From assembly GCA_018263435.1 (NCBI GenBank), contig JAANXD010000091.1, positions 1 to 34,459 on the forward strand: a stretch of DNA of 34,459 nt, written 5' to 3'. The translations under genes and the position numbers were made by a program. A model generated the notes under the pieces. The model did not search any database. It saw only the letters and a program-made list of their open reading frames with translations, and was not told where the DNA came from. Each line of letters begins with the position of its first letter. The first letter of the stretch is position 1. This DNA comes from Candidatus Scalindua arabica. Its GTDB lineage: Bacteria; Planctomycetota; Brocadiia; Brocadiales; Scalinduaceae. This document shows positions 7,525 through 33,726 of the stretch, in pieces.

Positions 7525-8139
7525 TTATTTATTTGATGCCAGGACTATTGGATACTTTTCTTTCGACGGCGGTTTTTGGGGTTCTTCTGGTTGTAGCGTT
7601 ATCAACATCTTCGTCATGACTTCCACAATGCGCTCTTTTGCTCCCGGTCTTTGTGCCGGAAGCCCATAAGCGACAGCTCTTATTTCCCATTTGTCATGAA
7701 TATTGGAAAACAGAATAATAACATACCCATCGCTCTCTCTACTGAAAACTACCTCTAAAGGAATTTGCATGTACGATGGATATTGTTCCCAATACTTCAT
7801 ATCACCTCCACACACTGTGACATTGTAATAAGGAGCAGGAGTTTCGTTGATTTTATAGTTTGACGGGATGCCAAATTCATCAACGAAGATCTTGAGTAAT
7901 TTGCTTACACGATGAATCACTTCAGATCTTTTCTCAGAAGTATAATCAACAGGGTAGTGAAATAACCCGGAAGCATCAGTATATTCGGAACTAGCCATAT
8001 GCGAGAAAAACTCCACAGAAAGAGATTGGAGCTGAGCTTCAATTGATTCCTGCGTTTCAACTGATTCCTGGCCTGTTGCACGAGAACCCAATGCCGACAG
8101 AAGGATACAGCATGTTAAAATTAACAAATTCTTTTTCAT
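7525..8139 (-). CDS. Secreted protein of unknown function, downstream paralogue
   Basis: The 204-residue product starts with a clear export signal (MKKNLLILTCCILLSALGSR) that probably ends near the ATG/Q boundary around residues 22-24. There is no proper lipobox. The mature part begins with a helix (ESIEAQLQSLSVEFFSHM) followed by ASSEYTDASGLFHYP, which resembles the start of NTF2-like or DUF3887-type periplasmic domains; I cannot confirm this. The best conserved block is WEIRAVAYGLPAQRPGAKER (~153-172). It lies 6 bases after the stop codon of a close paralogue and shares its ribosome-binding region (GAGGTTAATAACTTATG), so the pair is a tandem duplication and a likely operon. Confidence 0.75.
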   Translation of the reverse strand: MKKNLLILTCCILLSALGSRATGQESVETQESIEAQLQSLSVEFFSHMASSEYTDASGLFHYPVDYTSEKRSEVIHRVSKLLKIFVDEFGIPSNYKINETPAPYYNVTVCGGDMKYWEQYPSYMQIPLEVVFSRESDGYVIILFSNIHDKWEIRAVAYGLPAQRPGAKERIVEVMTKMLITLQPEEPQKPPSKEKYPIVLASNK

Positions 8140-8145
8140 AAGTTA

Positions 8146-8817
8146 TTAACCTCTTGAATGTTCATTTTTATACAAATATTTCCTGTCCTTGATACCCGAT
8201 TCATTTAATTTATGTGATGCTAGGACTATTGGATACTTTTTCTCCGTCGGTGGTTTCTGTGGCTTTGGTTGTAATGTTGCAAACATCTTCGCCATGACTT
8301 CCATAATACGCTCTTTTGCTCCCGGTCTTTGTGCCGGAAGTCCATAAGCGACAGCTCTTATTTCCCATTTGTTAAAAACATTTGAAAATAGAATAACAAT
8401 CTGCCCTTCATTCTCTTTGCTGAAAACCACCTCTAATGGAATTTGCAGTTGCGATGGATGTTTTTCCCAATACTGTATATCACCTCCACACACTGTTACA
8501 TTATAATGTGGATCTGGAAACTCACTGATTTTACAGCTTGTTGGAATGCCAAATTCATCAGTTAAGATCTTGAGCAGTTTGCTTACACCAAGAATCTGTC
8601 CAGTTTTTTTAACAGAAGTATATGCTTGAGGACAGTGGAATAACCCGGCGGCATCAGAATATTTGGAACTTGACATATGTGTGAGGAATTCCGAAGAAAG
8701 AGTCTGGATTTGGGCTTCAACTGATTTCCGGATTTCAACTGATTCCTGGCCTGATACACGAGTACTCAAAGCCGATAGAAGGATACAGCATGTCAAAATC
8801 AGTAAACTCTTTTTCAT
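8146..8817 (-). CDS. Secreted protein of unknown function, upstream paralogue
   Basis: The 223-residue product is roughly two thirds identical by eye to the next gene, with the same type of signal peptide (MKKSLLILTCCILLSAL) and the same blocks YNVTVCGGD, IPLEVVFS and WEIRAVAYGLPAQRPGAKER. It ends with about 20 extra residues (LNESGIKDRKYLYKNEHSRG) because the position where the paralogue has an in-frame TAA reads TTA here. The Shine-Dalgarno is GAGG 11 bases before the ATG. Two cysteines next to the signal core (TCC) and one in VCGGD are conserved in both copies. Function is unknown; export to the periplasm is the only firm inference. Confidence 0.75.
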   Translation of the reverse strand: MKKSLLILTCCILLSALSTRVSGQESVEIRKSVEAQIQTLSSEFLTHMSSSKYSDAAGLFHCPQAYTSVKKTGQILGVSKLLKILTDEFGIPTSCKISEFPDPHYNVTVCGGDIQYWEKHPSQLQIPLEVVFSKENEGQIVILFSNVFNKWEIRAVAYGLPAQRPGAKERIMEVMAKMFATLQPKPQKPPTEKKYPIVLASHKLNESGIKDRKYLYKNEHSRG

Positions 8818-12108: not shown

Positions 12109-13101
12109 TTAAGACGATAGCCAGCGTGCGGCGTCTTTTGCCCAGTAAGTGAGTATGATGTCTGCGCCTGCCCTTTTGATACCTGTCAATGTTTCCAGGG
12201 CAACAGCCTTCTCATCCAGCCACCCTTTTTCATGAGCAGCCTTTACCATGGAATATTCGCCGCTCACGTTATAAGCAGCTACAGGGTATCCAAATTGATC
12301 CTTTATAAGCCTGATTATATCTAGATACGGGAGTGCGGGTTTTACCATTACAATATCTGCTCCCTCTTCTATATCCAGTGATACTTCCCGTATAGCTTCT
12401 TCTGAGTTTGGTGTATCCATCTGATATGTCCGCCTGTCTCCGAAACTTGGTGGAGATTCGGCCGCATCTCTGAATGGGCCATAATATGCCGAAGCATATT
12501 TAGCCGCATAAGACATTATGGGAATGTTGTCATAACCGTTGTCATCGAGAATGTCTCTTATTGCACCTACACGTCCATCCATCATGTCACTCGGGGCTAC
12601 CATATCCACACCGGCCTCTGCGTGTGAGAGGGCCTCTTTAGTCAGCAGTTTAAGTGTCTCATCATTGTCAATTAAATGCTCACCACTCTTTTCATCCTTT
12701 TTTATGAAGCCACAGTGTCCGTGATTGGTGTATTCACACATGCATATATCCGTTATAACCAGTATATCAGAAACGTTTTCCTTAATAGCCCTGACAGCTT
12801 TTTGTATGATGCCATCATCCGCATATGCTTCAGTGCCTAACTCATCTTTGGTGCTGGGAATGCCGAAAAGAATTACGCCTGGGATGCCGAGAGAGGCAAG
12901 CTCTTTCACCTCTTCTACCAGTGTGTCTACGGAAAACTGATAATTTCCGGGCATTGATGATATTTCGTTCTTGATACCGTTTCCGGAACGCACAAACAGC
13001 GGCATAATGAGATCTTTTACAGATAAATGATTCTCGCGAACGAGATCACGTATAAGTTTATTACTTCTTAACCTGCGTGGACGGTACTTTGGAAACTGCA
13101 T
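12109..13101 (-). CDS. hemB: Delta-aminolevulinic acid dehydratase (porphobilinogen synthase)
   Basis: The 330-residue product condenses two 5-aminolevulinate molecules to porphobilinogen, the shared precursor of haem, sirohaem and cobamides. The N-terminal RPRRLR and IMPLFV, the active-site lysines in [19 protein letters not shown] (Lys201) and [11 protein letters not shown] (Lys254), and the cysteine site [14 protein letters not shown] (Cys120, 122, 130) are all present. The three cysteines indicate the zinc-dependent form. A good Shine-Dalgarno (AAAGGAAC) precedes the ATG at 13101. It is divergent from the HD-domain gene. Confidence 0.96.
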
Positions 13102-13765: not shown

Positions 13766-13886
13766 TAAAAGGGGACAGGCTACTTTTTGCCTAATATATC
13801 TTGTAGCTTACTCTCCCACGATCTGCTAAAAGATTTAATCCATGCTCCCTGTTACCTTTATCAAAAAAGTAGCCTGTCCCCTTTTA
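13766..13886. mobile_element. Non-autonomous mini-element with the transposase-type inverted repeats
   Basis: A 121-bp element with perfect 23-bp terminal inverted repeats at 13766-13788 and 13864-13886. The core of each arm is GGGGACAGGCTACTTTTT or its complement. The same sequence ends the Y1-transposase element at 16934-17668, so this is most likely a BIME-like unit mobilised in trans by that or a related enzyme. The 75-base interior shows no coding potential and no likeness to the transposase gene. Confidence 0.85.
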
Positions 13887-13985: not shown

Positions 13986-15329
13986 ATGAAGACTCAACTT
14001 GACAGAGCCAGAGATGGCGAAATTACACAAGAGATGAAAGAGGCTGCTGTCTATGATGATGTCAGCCCTGAATTTATACGTGATGGCATTGCCAATGGCC
14101 ACATTGTTATATATGGGAACCCTCAGAGGAAATCCACGGTTGTCGGTATCGGGCAGGGCCTGAGGACAAAGATAAATGCAAGTATCGGGACTTCTCCGGA
14201 CATTGTCGATTTTGATATGGAAGTAGAAAAGGCCAAAGTTGCTGAAAAGGCCGGTGCTGATACATTGATGGAACTTTCGACTGGTGGTGATCTTGGTGAG
14301 ATAAGAAAGAGGGTCCTTGACTCAATCAGTGTAACGGTTGGAACTGTGCCCCTGTATCAGGCAGCAATGGAGACTATTGAGAAGAAAGGTTCTGTGGTGA
14401 AAATGGAGGCGGATTTTCTGTTTGAGATTATTGAGAGACAGGCACAGGATGGAATAGGCTTTATGGCGATTCACTGCGGCATAAACATGATTACATTAGA
14501 ACGTCTAAGGAAACAGGGGTATAGATATGGCGGTCTCGTAAGCAGGGGAGGCTCTTTCTTAACTGCATGGATGAATCATAATAAGAAAGAAAACCCATTA
14601 TACGAAGAGATTGACAGGCTCATTGATATAATGAAGAAATATGACGTGATTTTGAGTCTTGGGAATGGTTTAAGGGCAGGTGCCGTACATGACAGCACCG
14701 ACAGGGCTCAGATCCAGGAATTGATTATGAATTCAGAGGTTGCCGAATATGCGCAGAAGAAGGGTGTCCAGATAATTGTTGAAGGTCCCGGACACATACC
14801 AATAGATGAGATAGAGGCAAATGTTATTATACAAAAAAGGATGAGCAATAACGCTCCATTTTACATGCTTGGACCTATCACTACTGACGTGACGCCGGGA
14901 TATGACCATATCTCTTCAGCAATTGGCGCAGCTTTATCATCCAGGTATGGCGCCGATTTCATCTGTTACGTTACACCACCTGAGCATCTTGCGCTTCCTA
15001 CAGCTGATGATGTAAGAGAGGGAGTTATGGCTGCAAAGGTTGCCGTTCACGTTGGGGATATGATAAAGCTAAAGGATAAAGTTAAAAACCAGGATTTGAA
15101 AATGGGTATTGCCAGGAGAGATCTTGACTGGAAGACCCAGTTTGAAACAGCCATCACTTCAGAGAAAGCTGAGGAGATAAGAAAAAGCAGGCCGCCAATG
15201 GAAGAGGAAACATGCACAATGTGCGGCCCGGTGTGTTCGTTGAAGGGCGTGATGGAATATTATGAAGATGATCTGAAAGGCAGCAGGAAGAAGAGTTATA
15301 CGACGGCAGTGCCATCAAATGGCTTCTAG
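13986..15329 (+). CDS. thiC/bzaF: ThiC-family radical SAM enzyme: candidate 5-hydroxybenzimidazole synthase BzaF, or HMP-P synthase ThiC
   Basis: The 447-residue product is a short-form ThiC-family enzyme. The family rearranges aminoimidazole ribotide, to HMP-phosphate for thiamine (ThiC) or to 5-hydroxybenzimidazole for the cobamide lower ligand (BzaF). Visible blocks are GIGQGLRTKINASIGTSPD, LSTGGD, SRGGSFLTAWM, EGPGHIPIDEIEAN, and the cluster-binding CTMCGPVC (Cys410, 413, 417), spaced CX2CX3C, one residue shorter than in E. coli ThiC. The block SLGNGLRAGAVHDSTD departs from the usual ThiC SLGDGLRPG. Downstream lie a B12-binding radical SAM gene and an O-methyltransferase-type gene, as in bza operons, which is why I favour BzaF. 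Sequence alone does not settle it. Shine-Dalgarno AAGGGAAG lies about 8 bases before the ATG. Confidence 0.85.
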   Translation: MKTQLDRARDGEITQEMKEAAVYDDVSPEFIRDGIANGHIVIYGNPQRKSTVVGIGQGLRTKINASIGTSPDIVDFDMEVEKAKVAEKAGADTLMELSTGGDLGEIRKRVLDSISVTVGTVPLYQAAMETIEKKGSVVKMEADFLFEIIERQAQDGIGFMAIHCGINMITLERLRKQGYRYGGLVSRGGSFLTAWMNHNKKENPLYEEIDRLIDIMKKYDVILSLGNGLRAGAVHDSTDRAQIQELIMNSEVAEYAQKKGVQIIVEGPGHIPIDEIEANVIIQKRMSNNAPFYMLGPITTDVTPGYDHISSAIGAALSSRYGADFICYVTPPEHLALPTADDVREGVMAAKVAVHVGDMIKLKDKVKNQDLKMGIARRDLDWKTQFETAITSEKAEEIRKSRPPMEEETCTMCGPVCSLKGVMEYYEDDLKGSRKKSYTTAVPSNGF

Positions 15330-15350
15330 TATCAATTCCGGTACTGGATT

Positions 15351-15366
15351 CCTCTCGAAAGAGAGG
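15351..15366. repeat. Perfect hairpin after the ThiC/BzaF-like gene, shared with the leuD end
   Basis: CCTCTCGAAAGAGAGG is a perfect 6-bp stem with a GAAA tetraloop, 21 bases after the stop codon. The same palindrome in opposite orientation lies 20 bases after the leuD stop at 34261-34276, and the preceding bases are also similar (AATTCCGGT here, AATTTCCGGTC there). It lacks a T tract, so it is not a standard intrinsic terminator; it may be a 3'-end stability element or part of a dispersed repeat. Confidence 0.6.
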
Positions 15367-15451
15367 TCTGTCATCGGGCTCGAACGATGCCTTCATTCCT
15401 GGATGATGTACAGAATTAATCCTCCTTTATTAATCTATAGAAGTAAGAAAC

Positions 15452-16936
15452 ATGTCCATCGTCCTGTTAGAACATCCAAGACCAAGAACTCCGGATAGAT
15501 ATGAATCTGTGGTTAATACACCGCTTTCTTCGTGTCTGATGACCGGTTATGTTGCGTCAACCCTGAAATCTAATGATTACGATGTAGATATTGTTGACGC
15601 AAATCTTCATGGGTGGTCTTTCAATGAAACAATTCAGGAACTTAAAAAGAGAAGCTTCAAATTGTTAGGTGTTCACCTTGTCTATTTGTGGGAGAACACG
15701 GAAGATGTATTTGAGATGCTCCTGGATCTTCGAAAGAGCATTCCTGATGTACACATAAATCTTTATGGGCACTTCCCCACATTTGCATCCAGGGAGTTAT
15801 TGGCCAATTATCCTTTTGTTGATTCTGTTACTATTGGCGAACCAGAGACCACATTTCTGGAGCTTTCAGGTGAAGTTGCAAACAATAAAGAGACTTCTAC
15901 TTTAAACACCATAAATGGCCTTGCGTTCAATTCCATTAATAGTAAGAGCGAAGAAGGTGTTCTTAAGCCTGACGTAATACTGAACAATCCGAGAAAACCG
16001 GTTTCAAATCTTGACAATCTTCCCTTTCCTTATCGCAACGACTTCGAATTGACAAAGAAGAAGGGAATCTCTACCTTTATCCTTGCCAGCAGGGGCTGCT
16101 ATGGGAAATGTACTTTCTGTTATCTGGATAATTTTTATGGTGAGGAATCATCCTGGCGGGGAAGAAGCCCTGAAAATGTATTTAGTGAGATTTGTGATAT
16201 TTATGAAGAACTTGAAGAGAGATATTTTTATTTTGCCGATGCGAATTTTATTGGTCCTGGCAAAAAGGGAAAAGAACGTGCGTGTGAACTGGCAAATCTC
16301 ATTATGGATAAAGGATTGAATATAAAGTTTGGGATTGAGTGCAGGGCTAACGATATAGAAGACAAAACGATTGGAATACTGGTCAGGGCAGGACTTAAAG
16401 ATGTTTTCCTCGGAGTTGAGAGCGGAAGTCAGAGGTCTCTGAATAAATTCAGGAAGTTTACAACGGTTGAGGATAATAAAGAGGCCATAAACATACTCAG
16501 GCAGTACGGTATAGAGCCTAATTACGGTTTTATCATGTTTGAGCCGGATTCAACATTGGCAGATATCAGGGAGAATTATGAATTTCTTAAAGAGATGAAA
16601 ATGCTGAATTCGCCGAGCATTACAGCACATCTTTTACACCACAAACAGACTGTATTCAAAGGAACACGTGATTACGAAAAGAATAACGGTGATATCTGCC
16701 CGGATTCAATAGGTATGTATGAACGTCCTTGTGAATTTAAAGATAAGGCAGTAGAGGCGCTGTCGGAAGAAGTAAATCTCTTTTGCCTTCAGGTGCTTAA
16801 GGAAATATCTCAGAACAGGGACGATGAAAATGGACAGTTTGATTCATGTGTTTATGATGAAGGTGATGCATTTTCTAAACTGAAAAATGAGCAACTGATT
16901 GAACATTTCGAACAGGCCTTGTCTTTCCTTGAATAA
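15452..16936 (+). CDS. B12-binding-domain radical SAM protein, candidate BzaD methylase
   Basis: The 494-residue product has an N-terminal cobalamin-binding Rossmann-type domain (~1-140; GYVASTLKSNDYDVDIVDAN, GHFPTFASRELL, VDSVTIGEPE) and a radical SAM core with CYGKCTFC (Cys216, 220, 223) and YFADANFIG, then LGVESGSQRSL. Such class B enzymes usually methylate unactivated carbons using methylcobalamin. In the anaerobic benzimidazole pathway, BzaD has this architecture and methylates 5-methoxybenzimidazole at C6. Position after a ThiC/BzaF-like gene and before an O-methyltransferase-type gene supports that role, but it is inference. The stop TAA (16934-16936) is formed by the first three bases of the transposon's left inverted repeat, so the original C-terminus may have been altered. 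The Shine-Dalgarno is weak. Confidence 0.8.
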   Translation: MSIVLLEHPRPRTPDRYESVVNTPLSSCLMTGYVASTLKSNDYDVDIVDANLHGWSFNETIQELKKRSFKLLGVHLVYLWENTEDVFEMLLDLRKSIPDVHINLYGHFPTFASRELLANYPFVDSVTIGEPETTFLELSGEVANNKETSTLNTINGLAFNSINSKSEEGVLKPDVILNNPRKPVSNLDNLPFPYRNDFELTKKKGISTFILASRGCYGKCTFCYLDNFYGEESSWRGRSPENVFSEICDIYEELEERYFYFADANFIGPGKKGKERACELANLIMDKGLNIKFGIECRANDIEDKTIGILVRAGLKDVFLGVESGSQRSLNKFRKFTTVEDNKEAINILRQYGIEPNYGFIMFEPDSTLADIRENYEFLKEMKMLNSPSITAHLLHHKQTVFKGTRDYEKNNGDICPDSIGMYERPCEFKDKAVEALSEEVNLFCLQVLKEISQNRDDENGQFDSCVYDEGDAFSKLKNEQLIEHFEQALSFLE

Positions 16937-17668
16937 AGGGGACAGGCTACTTTTTAATAGTAAAGGTGTTACTCATGCCAAGAATTCCGAGAGGTTTATC
17001 TGATGGACTTGTCTACCACGTATTGAATCGCGGAAACGGCAAGCAACGTGTGTTTCATTCAAACAAAGATTACGAAGCTTTTGTCAGCTTAATGAAAGAG
17101 GCAAAAGAACGTTATTCTTTAAAACTACTCGCCTATTGTTTAATGCCTAATCATTTTCACATTGTTTTAATGCCTGGTCAATCAGAAGATTTGAGTAAAT
17201 GGATGCAATGGTTGATGACAAGCCATGTGAGACGATACCATAGATATCATGGAACTAGCGGTCATGTATGGCAGGGGCGGTTTAAAAGTTTTATTATACA
17301 GAGTGATATTCATTTATTAATGGTGTTAAGATATGTTGAAGGGAATCCGGTAAGAGCTGGGTTGGTAAAGTTGGCAAAGGATTGGCAATGGTCGTCTCAT
17401 GGAGAGGTAACAGGTACACGGTCAAGATTATTAGTAGATGAAGTTTCATTAGAGTTACCGGATGACTGGAGTAGTTATGTAGATGAATCTCTTACGGAAG
17501 ACGAGTTAGAGAAATTCCATCAGAGTGTAAATCGCCAATCACCCTATGGAAGTAGTGAGTGGCAAAAACAGGTTAGTAGAGAACTAGGGTTGGAATCTTC
17601 TATGAGGCCACGGGGAAGACCGAGAAAGGAGAGGGGAAAATATGCAAAAAAGTAGCCTGTCCCCTTTA
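16934..17668 (+). mobile_element. Y1 (REP-associated) transposase element with perfect 22-bp inverted repeats
   Basis: A 735-bp unit bounded by perfect inverted repeats at 16934-16955 and 17647-17668 with core GGGGACAGGCTACTTTTT. It contains one Y1 transposase gene that ends inside the right repeat (TAG at 17653-17655). The arms match those of the mini-element at 13766-13886. No obvious target-site duplication is visible, as expected for HUH-type transposition. The element lies exactly between the radical SAM and methyltransferase coding regions and shares bases with both. Confidence 0.88.
16975..17655 (+). CDS. Y1_Tnp / REP-associated tyrosine transposase (RAYT-like)
   Basis: The 226-residue product is a single-domain HUH transposase: N-terminal MPRIPRGLSDGLVYHVLNRG, the metal-binding HUH in YCLMPNHFHIVLMP, and the region of the catalytic tyrosine in LRYVEGNPVRAGLVK. 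The C-terminus has the basic GRPRKERGKYAKK tail common in REP-associated transposases. These enzymes nick single-stranded DNA at palindromic hairpins such as those flanking this gene. I chose ATG 16975, which has TAAAGG 8 bases upstream; an in-frame GTG at 16966 adds three residues. The gene appears intact. Its last codons contain AAGGAGAGGGG, which serves as ribosome-binding site for the downstream methyltransferase. Confidence 0.92.
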   Translation: MPRIPRGLSDGLVYHVLNRGNGKQRVFHSNKDYEAFVSLMKEAKERYSLKLLAYCLMPNHFHIVLMPGQSEDLSKWMQWLMTSHVRRYHRYHGTSGHVWQGRFKSFIIQSDIHLLMVLRYVEGNPVRAGLVKLAKDWQWSSHGEVTGTRSRLLVDEVSLELPDDWSSYVDESLTEDELEKFHQSVNRQSPYGSSEWQKQVSRELGLESSMRPRGRPRKERGKYAKK

Positions 17669-18646
17669 TCGTATCTCAATGAAATAAGCTATAGCTATTG
17701 GAAGGCACAGGTTCTTTTTGTAGCTGTCGACATGGATATGTTTACGCTGACTGCTGGTAATGGTAAAAGTTGCAAGGCTATTGCCAAAAAACTAAGGACT
17801 GATCTCAGAGCAACTGAAATGATCTTGAACGCACTTGTTTCTTTAGAATTTCTGAGAAAGATTAAAGAAGTTTACAGGAATACTGATATATCCAACCGTT
17901 ATCTGGTGAAAGGCTCTCCACTGTACCAGGGTGACAGGATCCACCATTTTCATAATATGTTGGATTACTGGTCAAAATTAAGTGATGCTGTCAAGACTGG
18001 CAAGCCTACTGCATACGATGATGCAGAGGAAAAGGTTGATGAAAAGAGATTGAGAGAGTTCATCAGGGCCATGCACAATATCGGTGTAGTACAAGCCGGG
18101 GAAATACGCAAAAAATTAAATTTAAAGAAATACTATAGCCTTCTGGATCTGGCTGGAGGTCAGGGAACTTATGCTGTAAGGTTTGCTAAAGAAAACCCGA
18201 AACTGAAGGCTGTAGTCTTTGACCTTCCGGAGGTTATTAAGATTACCAGAGAGCATATTAAAGAGTCGGGTATGAAAGGGAAGGTTACAGCTAAGGCAGG
18301 GGATTGTCTTAAGGATAGTTTCGGCAAAGGAATGTATGATATTGTCTTTGTATCAAATTTATTACATATTTATAAACCGGTTGAAAATCGGAAAATATTA
18401 AAAAAATGTTGGGATTCATTATTAAAAAAAGGTATAGTTGTGGTTCAGGAGTTTGTCTTAAACTCTGCAAAGACACAACCACTTTTTGGTTCACTTTTCA
18501 GCCTGAATATGTTGATGGGAACACATAGAGGCTCATCTTATTCATATGTTGAAATGAAGGAGTGGCTCAAGGATGTGGGATTTAAGAACGTAAAGAGAGT
18601 TGATCTTGACTTGGATTCAGGCTTGGTCATTGGGCATAAGTCGTAA
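17642..18646 (+). CDS. SAM-dependent O-methyltransferase family protein, candidate BzaC
   Basis: The 334-residue product has an N-terminal winged-helix dimerisation domain (~10-95; YSYWKAQVLFVAVDMDMF) and a C-terminal Rossmann methyltransferase domain with motif I LLDLAGGQGTYA (167-178), VVFDLPEV (191-198) and DIVFVSNLLHIY. It belongs to the plant-COMT/hydroxyneurosporene-type O-methyltransferases, the group that includes BzaC, which methylates 5-hydroxybenzimidazole. Context after a ThiC/BzaF-like and a B12 radical SAM gene supports that. The ATG at 17642 lies inside the transposase gene (14-base overlap) and residues 3-9 are encoded by the element's right inverted repeat. The Shine-Dalgarno also lies in the transposase. 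The native N-terminus was probably near residue 10. Confidence 0.82.
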   Translation: MQKSSLSPLSYLNEISYSYWKAQVLFVAVDMDMFTLTAGNGKSCKAIAKKLRTDLRATEMILNALVSLEFLRKIKEVYRNTDISNRYLVKGSPLYQGDRIHHFHNMLDYWSKLSDAVKTGKPTAYDDAEEKVDEKRLREFIRAMHNIGVVQAGEIRKKLNLKKYYSLLDLAGGQGTYAVRFAKENPKLKAVVFDLPEVIKITREHIKESGMKGKVTAKAGDCLKDSFGKGMYDIVFVSNLLHIYKPVENRKILKKCWDSLLKKGIVVVQEFVLNSAKTQPLFGSLFSLNMLMGTHRGSSYSYVEMKEWLKDVGFKNVKRVDLDLDSGLVIGHKS

Positions 18647-20779: not shown

Positions 20780-20793
20780 ACTGAACTTTCGTG

Positions 20794-20916: not shown

Positions 20917-21456
20917 ATGATAAGACCTGAAACTGCTGATTGTACGAATAAAGATAAAATGGAGTTGTTGTGTGATGAGAGTGTTAAATTGGGCGCAACG
21001 ATTTCCAAAATAGTTTCCACAAAGAGTATTGTGGTAGAGCCCTGGGTTCAATTGAAATGCCGTTTCGGCTGCTCAAAATTTGGCAAATACAAGACCTGTC
21101 CGCCGCATACACCAACATATAAGGAAACTCAGGAATTGATGAATTGTTATGAGAGTGCCATTCTGATAGAAGGTCAGCCGCCTGCAAAACAATTTGAAGA
21201 AATGCTTCTCAGTATTGAGCACAAGGCAAATTTTGCCGGATTTTATAAGGCCTTTGCTCTAAATGCAGGGCCTTGTCCGCTTTGTACTACATGCGATGTA
21301 GATGGTACCTGTGTAATGCCGAAAGAGGCAAGGCCGTCAATGGAGGCATGTGGTATCGACGTCTTTAAGACTGTACGCAATAATGGTTTTGAAATAAAGT
21401 TTCTGGAACACAAAAACGAATATGTTAAATATTTCGGTTTACTCTTACTTGATTAA
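20917..21456 (+). CDS. DUF2284 family putative metal-binding protein
   Basis: The product has the cysteine pattern of DUF2284: CRFGCSKFGKYKTCPPHTPT, then GPCPLCTTCDVDGTCVMPKE, then ARPSMEACGIDVFKTVRNNG. The many cysteines suggest an iron-sulphur cluster or zinc. No biochemical function is known to me for the family. I chose ATG 20917, giving 179 residues; ATG 20959 is also possible. The frame stays open upstream to 20791, but those codons overlap the promoter and do not resemble the family. The stop is 14 bases before glmS, so the two are probably one operon. Confidence 0.8.
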   Translation: MIRPETADCTNKDKMELLCDESVKLGATISKIVSTKSIVVEPWVQLKCRFGCSKFGKYKTCPPHTPTYKETQELMNCYESAILIEGQPPAKQFEEMLLSIEHKANFAGFYKAFALNAGPCPLCTTCDVDGTCVMPKEARPSMEACGIDVFKTVRNNGFEIKFLEHKNEYVKYFGLLLLD

Positions 21457-29445: not shown

Positions 29446-32400
29446 ATGATAAGAAGTTTAGAGAAGAATCCACAAAAAAAGCAGAAGAAATACATAGGAA
29501 TAGACATAGGCTCTGTGAGTGTAAAAACAGTGCTGGTGAACGAAGAGAAAGAGGTCCTGGAGAATCACTATGTACGATCACACGGCCAACCGCTGGAGAC
29601 GGTATTGATTGTTTTGAAGGAAATGTTCAATAGAGTTGAAACAGATGAGATAGAGGGTATCTCGGCGACCGGATCCGGTGGTAAGCTATTGTCTGATATA
29701 ATAGGGATAAGTTTTATAAACGAGATAGTTGCGCAAAGCATGGCAACATCGGTACTGCATCCAGAAGTAAGAACAGTAATCGAAATAGGTGGCGAAGATT
29801 CAAAGCTGATAATGCTTGAGCCTGATGAGGCAGGTGGAAAAAATCTAAAAGTGTCTGATTTCTCTATGAACACAATGTGTGCAGCCGGTACGGGATCATT
29901 TTTAGATCAGCAGTCAACCAGAATAGGTGTCTCTATAGAGAACGAGTTTGGTAAATTGGCCGCAAAATCAACAAGCCCGCCCAGGATAGCTGGTAGGTGC
30001 AGTGTATTTGCAAAATCAGATATGATTCATCTTCAGCAGGTGGGAACAGAGACCCATGATATTGTCTCCGGTCTGTGCTATGCGCTTACAAGGAATTTCA
30101 AAAGTAACATTGGGAAAGGCAAGGAATTTGTAAAGCCTATAGCCTTTCAAGGTGGAGTTGCTGCCAATACAGGGATAGTGAAGGCGTTTGAGGATATACT
30201 CGATTTACGTGAAGGGGAACTTATTATTCCCAAATACTTTAATACTATGGGAGCAATAGGATGTGCGTTGACATTAATAGATAAGGGTATTTCTTCCCCG
30301 TTTAAAGGGTTGCAGGCAATTGATGACTATCTAAGGGACCGTAAGGGAAAAGACACCAATCTAAAGAAACTGGCATGTAACAACTATAAAATAAATGTTA
30401 AGCCGTTTAAGCTCAGTACTAGAAAGAAAACAGATGCGTATGTAGGTGTTGATGTTGGATCTATAAGTACAAATGTTGTTGTGATAGACAAGGATAAGAA
30501 TGTATTGTCCAGGCGTTATTTGATGACAGCGGGTAAGCCTCTGGAGGCGGTAAGGCAGGGGTTGCTCGAGGTAGGAGACGAGGTTGGTAAAAAAGTTACA
30601 GTAAAGGGAGTGGGTGTAACCGGTTCAGGAAGGTACCTGACAGGAGAGTTTATCGGTGCAGACATAGTTAAAAATGAGATAACGGCTCATGGTACTGCTG
30701 CCGCCTGGGTTGATAAGGATGTAGACACAATCTTTGAAATAGGCGGACAGGATTCTAAATATATAAGCCTGGAGCACGGGGCAATAGTTGATTTCACAAT
30801 GAATAAAGTATGCGCCGCGGGAACAGGGTCATTCCTTGAAGAACAATCTGAAAAACTGGATGTTAATATTAAGAAGGAATTTGGTAACCGTGCACTGGAT
30901 TCATGCTGCCCCTCACAACTTGGTGAGAGGTGTACTGTGTTTATGGAATCCGACCTTAACCATCACCAGCAGCTTGGAGTACCTAAAGATGATTTGCTGG
31001 CAGGGCTGAGTTATTCAATAGTATTAAATTATATAAATCGTGTTGTTGAAAAAAGAAAGATTGGTGACACTATCTTCCTGCAGGGCGGAGTCGCTGCAAA
31101 TAGAGGAGTAAAAGCGGCTTTTGAGAAGATTACCGGCAGGGAAATTATAGTACCGCCACATCATGATGTTATGGGTGCAATAGGTTCTGCAATAATATCC
31201 ATGGAGGAGAAAACATGGAGTGAATCTGGATTTAAGGGCTTTGATTTAAGTAACAGGAAGTATGAAACAACGTCATTTGTCTGTAGGGATTGTTCAAATA
31301 TATGTGAAATAAGAAAAGTAACAATAACCGGAGAATCGCCTCTCCATTACGGAAGTCGTTGTGGTAAGTTTGATGACGAAAAGAAGATAAAAAAGTCAAA
31401 GAATTTGCCCAGATTATTTTATGAAAGGAATCGGCAGTTGTACGGTCCTTATTATACCGACAGAAAGACTAAGAGTGTCGTACAGAAGCGTGAGAACGGC
31501 AACAAATCTTACGGACGAATAGGAATACCTCAGGCGTCTACTTTCTTTGAATTATTTCCAATGTGGAGGACATTTTTTACCGAATTGGGCTTTGATATAG
31601 TTATATCAAAGAATACTAATCGTGGCATAATTAATAAAGGGATAGAACATGTTAACGCCGAAACGTGCTTTCCTATAAAGGTATCACACGGACACGTTGC
31701 AGATATGCTTGACAAGGAGATCGATTATTTATTCCTGCCTAGTGTGATCAATATGACTCATGAATCTTCTAATATGACTCATTCTTATGCGTGCCCTTAT
31801 ATTCAGTGTCTTCCTTATATAATTGGATCGGCAGTTGATCTTGAGTCCCAGAAATTTAAGCTGTTACAGCCTGTAATACACTTTGAATACGGAGAATCTC
31901 ACGTAGAAAAAACATTCCGTAAAATTGCTGCAGATATTGGTGTAAGGGGAAAGAGAGCAACAAACGCAATAAAGAAAGCCCAGGAAACCCAAAAAAGCTT
32001 CTATAAACATATGCAGGACAGGGGTAAAGAGGTATTAGATAATTTAGGTGATGATGAAACTGCACTGGTAATTATTAGTCGTCCTTATAACGGTTGCGAT
32101 TCCGGTGTTAATTTAGACCTTCCGGAAAAACTTAGAGACATGGGGATCCTGGCAATACCAATGGATTGTATACCTATGGATTTAGAAGACATAGCAAAGG
32201 ATTATCCAAATATGTATTGGAAATATGGACAAAAGATACTTGCTGCTGCAAGGTTTGTAGCAAATGATAAAAGGTTACATGCTCTTTATATAACAAATTT
32301 CGGGTGTGGGCCTGATTCATTTATTTCCAAGTTCTTTCCCAAAGAGGTTGGAGGCAAACCATTTTTGATGATAGACATAGACGAGCACAGTGCGGATGCG

Positions 32401-33726
32401 GGCGTAATGACACGTTGCGAGGCATTCCTGGATAGCCTGAAAAACGCAAGAACTAAAAAGTTTGAGAAAGAAACGAACGGATCATGTGAACACACAATAA
32501 ATGTGAAAAGGACAATGTACATTCCTTATATGAATGATTGCTGTTACATGGCTGCTGCCGCAATGAGGGCAAATGGAGTTGATGCTGTAGCTATGCCAAT
32601 GCCGGATAAAACAAGCCTTGAATTAGGGAGAAAATATACGTCCGGGAAAGAATGTTACCCGGCAATATTGACGACAGGAGATATCGTGAAAAAGGCAAAG
32701 AGCCCTGACTTTGAGCCTGACAGGAGTGTCTTTTTTATGGCGACAGCGTCAGGTCCATGCAGGTTTGGCCAGTATAATACAATGCATAGAATGATTCTTG
32801 ATGACATTGGTTTGCCGCATGTACCAATATACACATTGGATCAGGGAGATGACTATCAGGAAGATACAAAGAATTTAGGGGCAAATTTCCGTAAGCTTAC
32901 GTGGAATGGAGTAGTATTCGTTGACTATATGCAAAAGTTATTACACGAAATAAGACCTTACGAAATAAATAAAGGCGATTCAGATGTTGTATATAAACAG
33001 CATCTGAGAAAAGCAGAACACGCAATAGAATTCGGACATGATCTTCTGCAGGTTGCTAAAGATGCAAGTGACGCATTGAATAGCGTTGCAGTAGACCGAA
33101 GCGTGCGGAAACCCAAAATTGGCATTATTGGTGAGACCTACGTTCGTGGAAATGAGTTCTCAAATAACTTTATCGTAAGAACGATTGAGAAGCTTGGTGG
33201 TACGGCAGTAGTGCCTCCGTTTAGTGAATGGCTGGACTATATTGCCCATCTCAGAAGGGTAGATAGTAAAAGGGAAAAAGATTTTAACTCTCTTTCAGTA
33301 GAGTTGCTAACCGAGGTAATACAGAAGTATCACGAACACAAAATGTCACGTCCTTTTAAGAAAAGCGGAATGAAGCTTTTTAAGGAAAGTTCTATAAAGA
33401 AACTGATTTCGAAGGGCAAATCATATATCCATGATTCATATAGAGGTGATCCGGTTCTCAGCATGGGAAGAGCTGTGGAATATATAGAGGCGGATTATGA
33501 CGGTATTATAAACATTATCCCATTTCATTGTATGCCTGGAACAGCCGTAAATGCCGTTTTAGAGAAATTACAAAGAGAGCACAATGATATTCCATTATTA
33601 AAACTGACATTTGATGGCCAGGAAGAGACAAATGAGGAGACTCGTCTGGAAGCGTTTATACATCAGGCATATCAAAGAATGGAAAGCAGACTGAGTAAAA
33701 TAAATGACTATGCAACTGTGAATTAG
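29446..33726 (+). CDS. Giant fused CoA-dehydratase activase-type protein (two BcrAD/BadFG domains, DUF2229, dehydratase-like C-terminus)
   Basis: The 1426-residue product starts with two ASKHA ATPase domains of the 2-hydroxyacyl-CoA dehydratase activator type: domain 1 at ~15-285 ([33 protein letters not shown]) and domain 2 at ~330-590 ([32 protein letters not shown]). Each keeps both cluster cysteines (145/185 and 456/496), so the two can form an intramolecular version of the activator dimer. A four-Cys motif follows (613, 616, 620, 639), then a DUF2229-type domain (~690-900; [30 protein letters not shown]) and a C-terminal region (~990-1420) resembling dehydratase D-component proteins ([26 protein letters not shown]). 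Family members are thought to energise electrons by ATP hydrolysis; the target is unknown. AGGAG precedes the ATG. It lies between leuC and leuD. Confidence 0.88.

Follow-up and report, generated by a model that had tools for sequence, protein, structure and literature searches.

Genes at the locus

The window analysed here is the whole 34,459-nucleotide contig JAANXD010000091.1 (contig C94 of the source genome G000, which comprises 2.69 Mb and is 95% complete). Its host is a Scalindua-like anammox bacterium of the planctomycete order Brocadiales, with Candidatus Scalindua, Kuenenia, Jettenia and Brocadia as named relatives. On the forward strand it carries a group of bza-type genes, which very probably serve the anaerobic synthesis of a benzimidazole, the lower ligand of a cobamide. 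Such genes are usually annotated as a vitamin B1 enzyme and as methylases of no particular name. The first of these genes (13986-15329) encodes a ThiC-family protein of 447 amino acids (PF01964, 609 bits; hereafter the 13986 protein), the second (15452-16936) a B12-binding radical S-adenosylmethionine (SAM) protein (PF02310 and PF04055) and the third (17642-18646) a COMT-type methyltransferase (PF00891 and PF08100). An initial annotation of this DNA had described these three genes on one strand with the same domains and interpreted them as bzaF-bzaD-bzaC without bzaE. All three are present, as is hemB close by on the opposite strand (12109-13101, reverse; NF006762, 522 bits), whose product, porphobilinogen synthase, belongs to the tetrapyrrole pathway. 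The list of three was incomplete, since it missed a transposon inserted between the second and the third of them as well as a gene for a DUF2284 metal-binding protein (PF10050, 139 bits) at about 20959-21456 on the forward strand, in an open reading frame that opens at 20791.

Orthologues of the radical SAM protein (at least 45% identity) are present in most of the 59 Brocadiales genomes surveyed. Where flanks were sufficient, bzaF lies upstream of the radical SAM gene at 23 of 32 Brocadiales loci and the methyltransferase gene downstream of it at 20 of 31. Because these neighbours recur across the order, the grouping does not reflect chance.

A ThiC paralogue predicted to be BzaF

The source genome holds two ThiC-family genes with 47% identity to each other, the second at positions 10689-11951 of contig C64 (G000:C64:10689-11951), and two such genes also occur in most of the 59 Brocadiales genomes. 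We placed the 13986 protein in a ThiC-family tree of 76 sequences, including ThiC of E. coli, the genome's own ThiC and Desulfobacterota ThiC. It groups with Desulfobacterota paralogues that share its SLGN block (support 100/100), this clade is sister to BzaA plus BzaB (99/94), and all the ThiC proteins named above fall outside the BzaF/BzaA/BzaB group. The annotated BzaF of Trichlorobacter lovleyi pGLOV01 (GLOV_RS18185), which represents the bzaF genes of Geobacteraceae, is 57% identical to the 13986 protein, and both contain SLGNGLRAG. The BzaF enzyme of G. sulfurreducens (GSU3005) makes 5-hydroxybenzimidazole (PMC7726332), the identity just given referring to the T. lovleyi protein. Across 297 Desulfobacterota genomes, matches to the 13986 protein fall into two groups: paralogues with approximately 52-62% identity, whose matches extend to residue 430-440, and ordinary ThiC with approximately 48-53% identity, whose matches stop near 420-428.

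SLGNGLRAG was found in every Brocadiales copy examined, and SLGNG(L/M/I)RAG at 30 of 30 Desulfobacterota loci. The equivalent block of ThiC reads SLGD..RPG, and BzaA and BzaB likewise have the aspartate. All BzaF-clade rows of the alignment thus show a change of Asp383 to Asn together with a change of Pro to Ala, while the aspartate is kept in ThiC, BzaA and BzaB. In Arabidopsis ThiC, Asp383 forms a hydrogen bond to the imidazole N3 of aminoimidazole ribotide (AIR) (PMC4389238). The remaining AIR, SAM and metal contacts that were checked are conserved in the 13986 protein, which also retains the equivalent of the catalytic Cys474 known in Caulobacter ThiC (PMC11117688). Judged by these alignments, the SLGN block is diagnostic for BzaF versus ThiC. 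The initial annotation had pointed to this motif and also to CX2CX3C. The latter is present as CTMCGPVC, but the genome's own ThiC has CSMCAEFC, and we therefore dropped it as evidence for BzaF.

That the 13986 protein might be an ordinary thiamine ThiC copy next to unrelated genes is hardly credible. It does exceed both NCBIfam ThiC cut-offs (598 versus 410 bits and 583 versus 460 bits), but the annotated T. lovleyi BzaF (L279:10001-11311) also passes them with 600 and 554 bits. Moreover, the tree excludes the 13986 protein from ThiC, a second thiC exists in the genome, and relatives of the 13986 protein sit in cobamide operons, so that a thiamine ThiC identity was rejected on tree and context. 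As a side observation, NCBIfam release 20 yielded no BzaF model among the hits of BzaF proteins, and the models alone would lead to the name phosphomethylpyrimidine synthase. On sequence evidence, we assign the 13986 protein to BzaF, the proposed 5-hydroxybenzimidazole synthase. The earlier call of a bza-type cluster for anaerobic synthesis that includes a BzaF-like paralogue of ThiC is borne out by the tree, by the second thiC and by a cobT gene elsewhere in the genome (C13:7171-8157).

A radical SAM protein of the predicted BzaE type

Against the BzaD model TIGR04385, the radical SAM protein of the window scores 40 bits at a cut-off of 450. An assignment to BchE, HpnJ or similar proteins was likewise rejected (best score 122 bits versus a cut-off of 481). 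In a survey of Bacillota, BzaD was found above the cut-off in 16 of 299 genomes, and the loci fetched from them show, where complete, the order bzaA-bzaB-cobT-bzaC-bzaD-X. E. limosum and A. woodii share this order with bzaE in the position of X (PMC8123684), and by this published gene order the operon-last gene X would be BzaE. The Desulfofundulus orthologue of the window protein (44% identical to it) shows 35-44% identity to X and 21-25% to BzaD. In a tree of radical SAM proteins, X clusters with the Brocadiales and Desulfofundulus proteins (100/100); a long branch leads to this group, which is separate from BzaD. With this clade and the low score, the assignment to BzaD was rejected, and by homology the window protein is classified as BzaE-type.

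This reverses the former reading of bzaD without bzaE, as BzaD is the gene that is missing. In published work, bzaD is the 5-methoxybenzimidazole C-methyltransferase and bzaE the anaerobic 5,6-dimethylbenzimidazole synthase (PMC8620254). With the two genes swapped, the ligand predicted by the initial annotation, 5-methoxy-6-methylbenzimidazole, does not follow. It would still arise if the radical SAM protein were a C-methylase that spares the methoxy group, and a B12-dependent radical SAM gene does adjoin those for BzaF and the methyltransferase. Given the position of the protein in the BzaE clade rather than the BzaD clade, and its score against the BzaD model, we consider this quite improbable.

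A BzaC predicted to be split into two genes

Compared with BzaC of bzaABCDE operons, the entire window methyltransferase aligns to the front half (28-32% identity, E to 1e-54). At the two canonical loci checked by Pfam (L203 and L081), BzaC is a methyltransferase with a C-terminally fused DUF2284 domain, and at the other canonical bza loci one open reading frame matches both parts. The DUF2284 domain was noted as a C-terminal metal-binding domain in BzaC of the bzaABCDE-type operons L203-L217. The fusion of a standard BzaC is absent from the window, where DUF2284 is encoded by a separate gene. The previous bzaC call covered the methyltransferase and overlooked the DUF2284 gene. Desulfofundulus also has methyltransferase and DUF2284 as two genes within one bza operon, and at a locus of the Desulfobacterota genome G137 (L167) cobT and bzaF stand in one operon with a homologue of the methyltransferase. 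Of 39 Brocadiales genomes, 37 have exactly one DUF2284 copy; in genome G023 the gene directly follows hemB (L295), and hemB of the window likewise lies near bzaF. The 5' part of the window DUF2284 frame is unconserved and the position of its start codon is uncertain. From sequence comparison, we read METHYLTRANSFERASE plus DUF2284 as a split BzaC. In T. lovleyi, the methyltransferase directly after bzaF (L279:11319-12353) resembles the front half of BzaC as well, with up to 33% identity and 144 bits.

Comparison with known bza loci

Cobalamin riboswitches were detected in six of seven bzaF loci of relatives that were scanned for RNA families, at two of them (L173, L168) immediately upstream of bzaF. 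Further cobamide genes are found at these loci: at L166, bzaF is preceded by cobU, cobT, cobS and cbiA (Pfam), and L165 and L170 appear similar judging by their reading frames. At L167, a riboswitch is followed by the radical SAM gene, the methyltransferase gene, cobT and bzaF in this order, with cbiB further on, and T. lovleyi pGLOV01 shows the order cobT-bzaF-methyltransferase.

The T. lovleyi locus resembles the window in the 57% identity of BzaF, its SLGNGLRAG block, the single-gene form and the adjoining methyltransferase. It differs in that its bzaF lies beside cobT. In the source genome of the window, cobT lies away from the cluster, which has no riboswitch close by and contains a BzaE-type gene in addition. 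With the bzaABCDE operons (bzaA-bzaB-cobT-bzaC-bzaD-bzaE) the window shares a homologous BzaE-type protein, the methyltransferase and the DUF2284 domain; here, however, BzaF stands for BzaA plus BzaB, BzaC is encoded in two genes, BzaD is absent and cobT is located elsewhere. The operons of Desulfofundulus and Desulfovirgula run bzaA-bzaB-methyltransferase-DUF2284-radical SAM (BzaB in Desulfofundulus L071 scores 772 bits at a cut-off of 700). Together with those of Desulfotomaculum copahuensis (L071, L073-L076 and L082 in total), they show a BzaE-type protein, a split BzaC and no BzaD above the cut-off, as in the window, but they have BzaA plus BzaB in place of BzaF. The G137 operon contains BzaF, a methyltransferase and a BzaE-type protein like the window, in a genome without BzaD, and differs by its riboswitch, its cobT and its gene order.

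Predicted pathway and lower ligand

Homology, the two trees, operon context and the lack of BzaD and BluB above their cut-offs form the basis of our interpretation, from which we infer the activities of the enzymes, the identity of the operon-last gene as BzaE and, above all, the exact product. We hold it to be very probable that the cluster consists of bzaF, a bzaE-type gene and a split bzaC without bzaD and belongs to an anaerobic benzimidazole pathway, a confidence that does not extend to the exact product. In this pathway, BzaF would convert AIR to 5-hydroxybenzimidazole. The COMT-type methyltransferase and the separate DUF2284 protein would then O-methylate 5-hydroxybenzimidazole, or its riboside form, to the 5-methoxy form, and the BzaE-type B12 radical SAM protein would methylate the ring, most likely by replacing the methoxy group. 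The base would be joined to the corrinoid by CobT, CobS and CobU, whose genes lie elsewhere in the genome. Since cobS and a CobU-like open reading frame are present besides the cobT mentioned above, attachment of the base appears possible.

Several observations weigh against this interpretation. As the initial annotation had already noted, no B12 riboswitch is present at the cluster (no Rfam match in the window) and cobT is not near it; six other Brocadiales loci scanned also showed no riboswitch. Control of the cluster by a B12 riboswitch was accordingly rejected. The window methyltransferase is approximately 30% identical to BzaC and no closer, and the bza genes are non-adjacent in several Brocadia genomes. 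Finally, each genome encodes many other B12 radical SAM proteins, and a diverged or unrelated one could replace BzaD. The two cobalamin riboswitches of the source genome lie on contig C96, away from the cluster, and form a tandem pair (C96:19647-20346, L292) upstream of a gene whose protein product begins with a signal-like sequence.

The lower ligand would be a methylated benzimidazole, perhaps 5-methylbenzimidazole. BzaD, the enzyme for C6 methylation, exceeded its cut-off in none of the 59 Brocadiales genomes, and the simplest product is hence a 5-methylbenzimidazolyl cobamide, not true vitamin B12: if BzaE swaps methoxy for methyl, a pathway lacking BzaD ends at 5-methylbenzimidazole. We know of no assigned pathway for such a lower ligand. 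Tentatively, and with confidence somewhat short of even, we propose 5-methylbenzimidazolyl cobamide as the product of the bzaF-bzaC-DUF2284-bzaE set without bzaD, which is common to most of the anammox order and is met again, with bzaAB, in sulfate reducers.

A less probable alternative, which we regard as unlikely yet worth considering, is that true 5,6-dimethylbenzimidazole is made because the BzaE-type or another B12 radical SAM protein also methylates C6 in place of BzaD. Each genome has numerous B12 radical SAM paralogues, which would allow for this, published work regards anammox bacteria as suppliers of cobalamin (PMC10982107, PMC5460018), and some Brocadiaceae proteins reach 220-294 bits against the BzaD model. 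The latter remain under the cut-off of 450, however, and were rejected as BzaD, as the four best-scoring loci (L222-L225) show no bza neighbours. Furthermore, a search of the source genome for BzaD gave no match at E 1e-40, and BzaD is likewise lacking in Desulfofundulus, Desulfovirgula and G137, so that its lack looks like a stable gene set. A BluB route to 5,6-dimethylbenzimidazole was rejected, since none of 39 Brocadiales genomes had a BluB match above the cut-off.

Inserted mobile element and other features of the window

The gene for the radical SAM protein is separated from that for the methyltransferase by a REP/IS200-type element of 737 bp (16933-17669, forward strand) with 23-bp perfect inverted ends (16933-16955 and 17647-17669) and an open reading frame for a Y1 (IS200/REP-type) transposase (16966-17655, forward strand). 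The radical SAM stop codon lies within the left end of the element and the methyltransferase start near its right end, which leaves both neighbouring reading frames intact; the first methyltransferase codons are supplied by the end of the inserted element. In a relative without the element (L033), the two genes have a few bases in common (...TATGAATAA...). Scalindua sediminis (L041) has an 80% identical transposase in the same place, and at L034 the element is reduced to an end sequence there. Immediately upstream of bzaF, a short element at 13768-13884 consists of two inverted copies of one end sequence: 16 bp match exactly at 13768-13783 (forward) and 13869-13884 (reverse), with a chance expectation of 0.01. 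It is likely a REPIN-like dependant of the mobile element.

Elsewhere in the window, 7525-8139 and 8146-8817 (reverse strand) encode two similar proteins in tandem, an apparent duplication; both start like signal peptides, and neither has a match in Pfam. A protein of 1426 amino acids (29446-33726), judged by eye to be apparently two-fold CoA-dehydratase-activase-like, is encoded between leuC-like (28116) and leuD-like (33758) genes.

Implications for anammox bacteria

The lower ligand sets which organisms can use a cobamide. Anammox bacteria have repeatedly been said to supply their communities with vitamin B12 (PMC5460018, PMC10982107), and we found no paper that names the lower ligand of their cobamides in a search that was thin on subscription journals. 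NCBI models would name the anammox BzaF a thiamine enzyme, and genome-based vitamin predictions for Brocadiales may well err as a result; the change of Asp383 to Asn would offer a simple signature to discriminate BzaF from ThiC. The conserved bza set without bzaD makes the question of the anammox lower ligand directly testable. If the 5-methylbenzimidazolyl reading is true, the "vitamin B12" of anammox bacteria would not be cobalamin.

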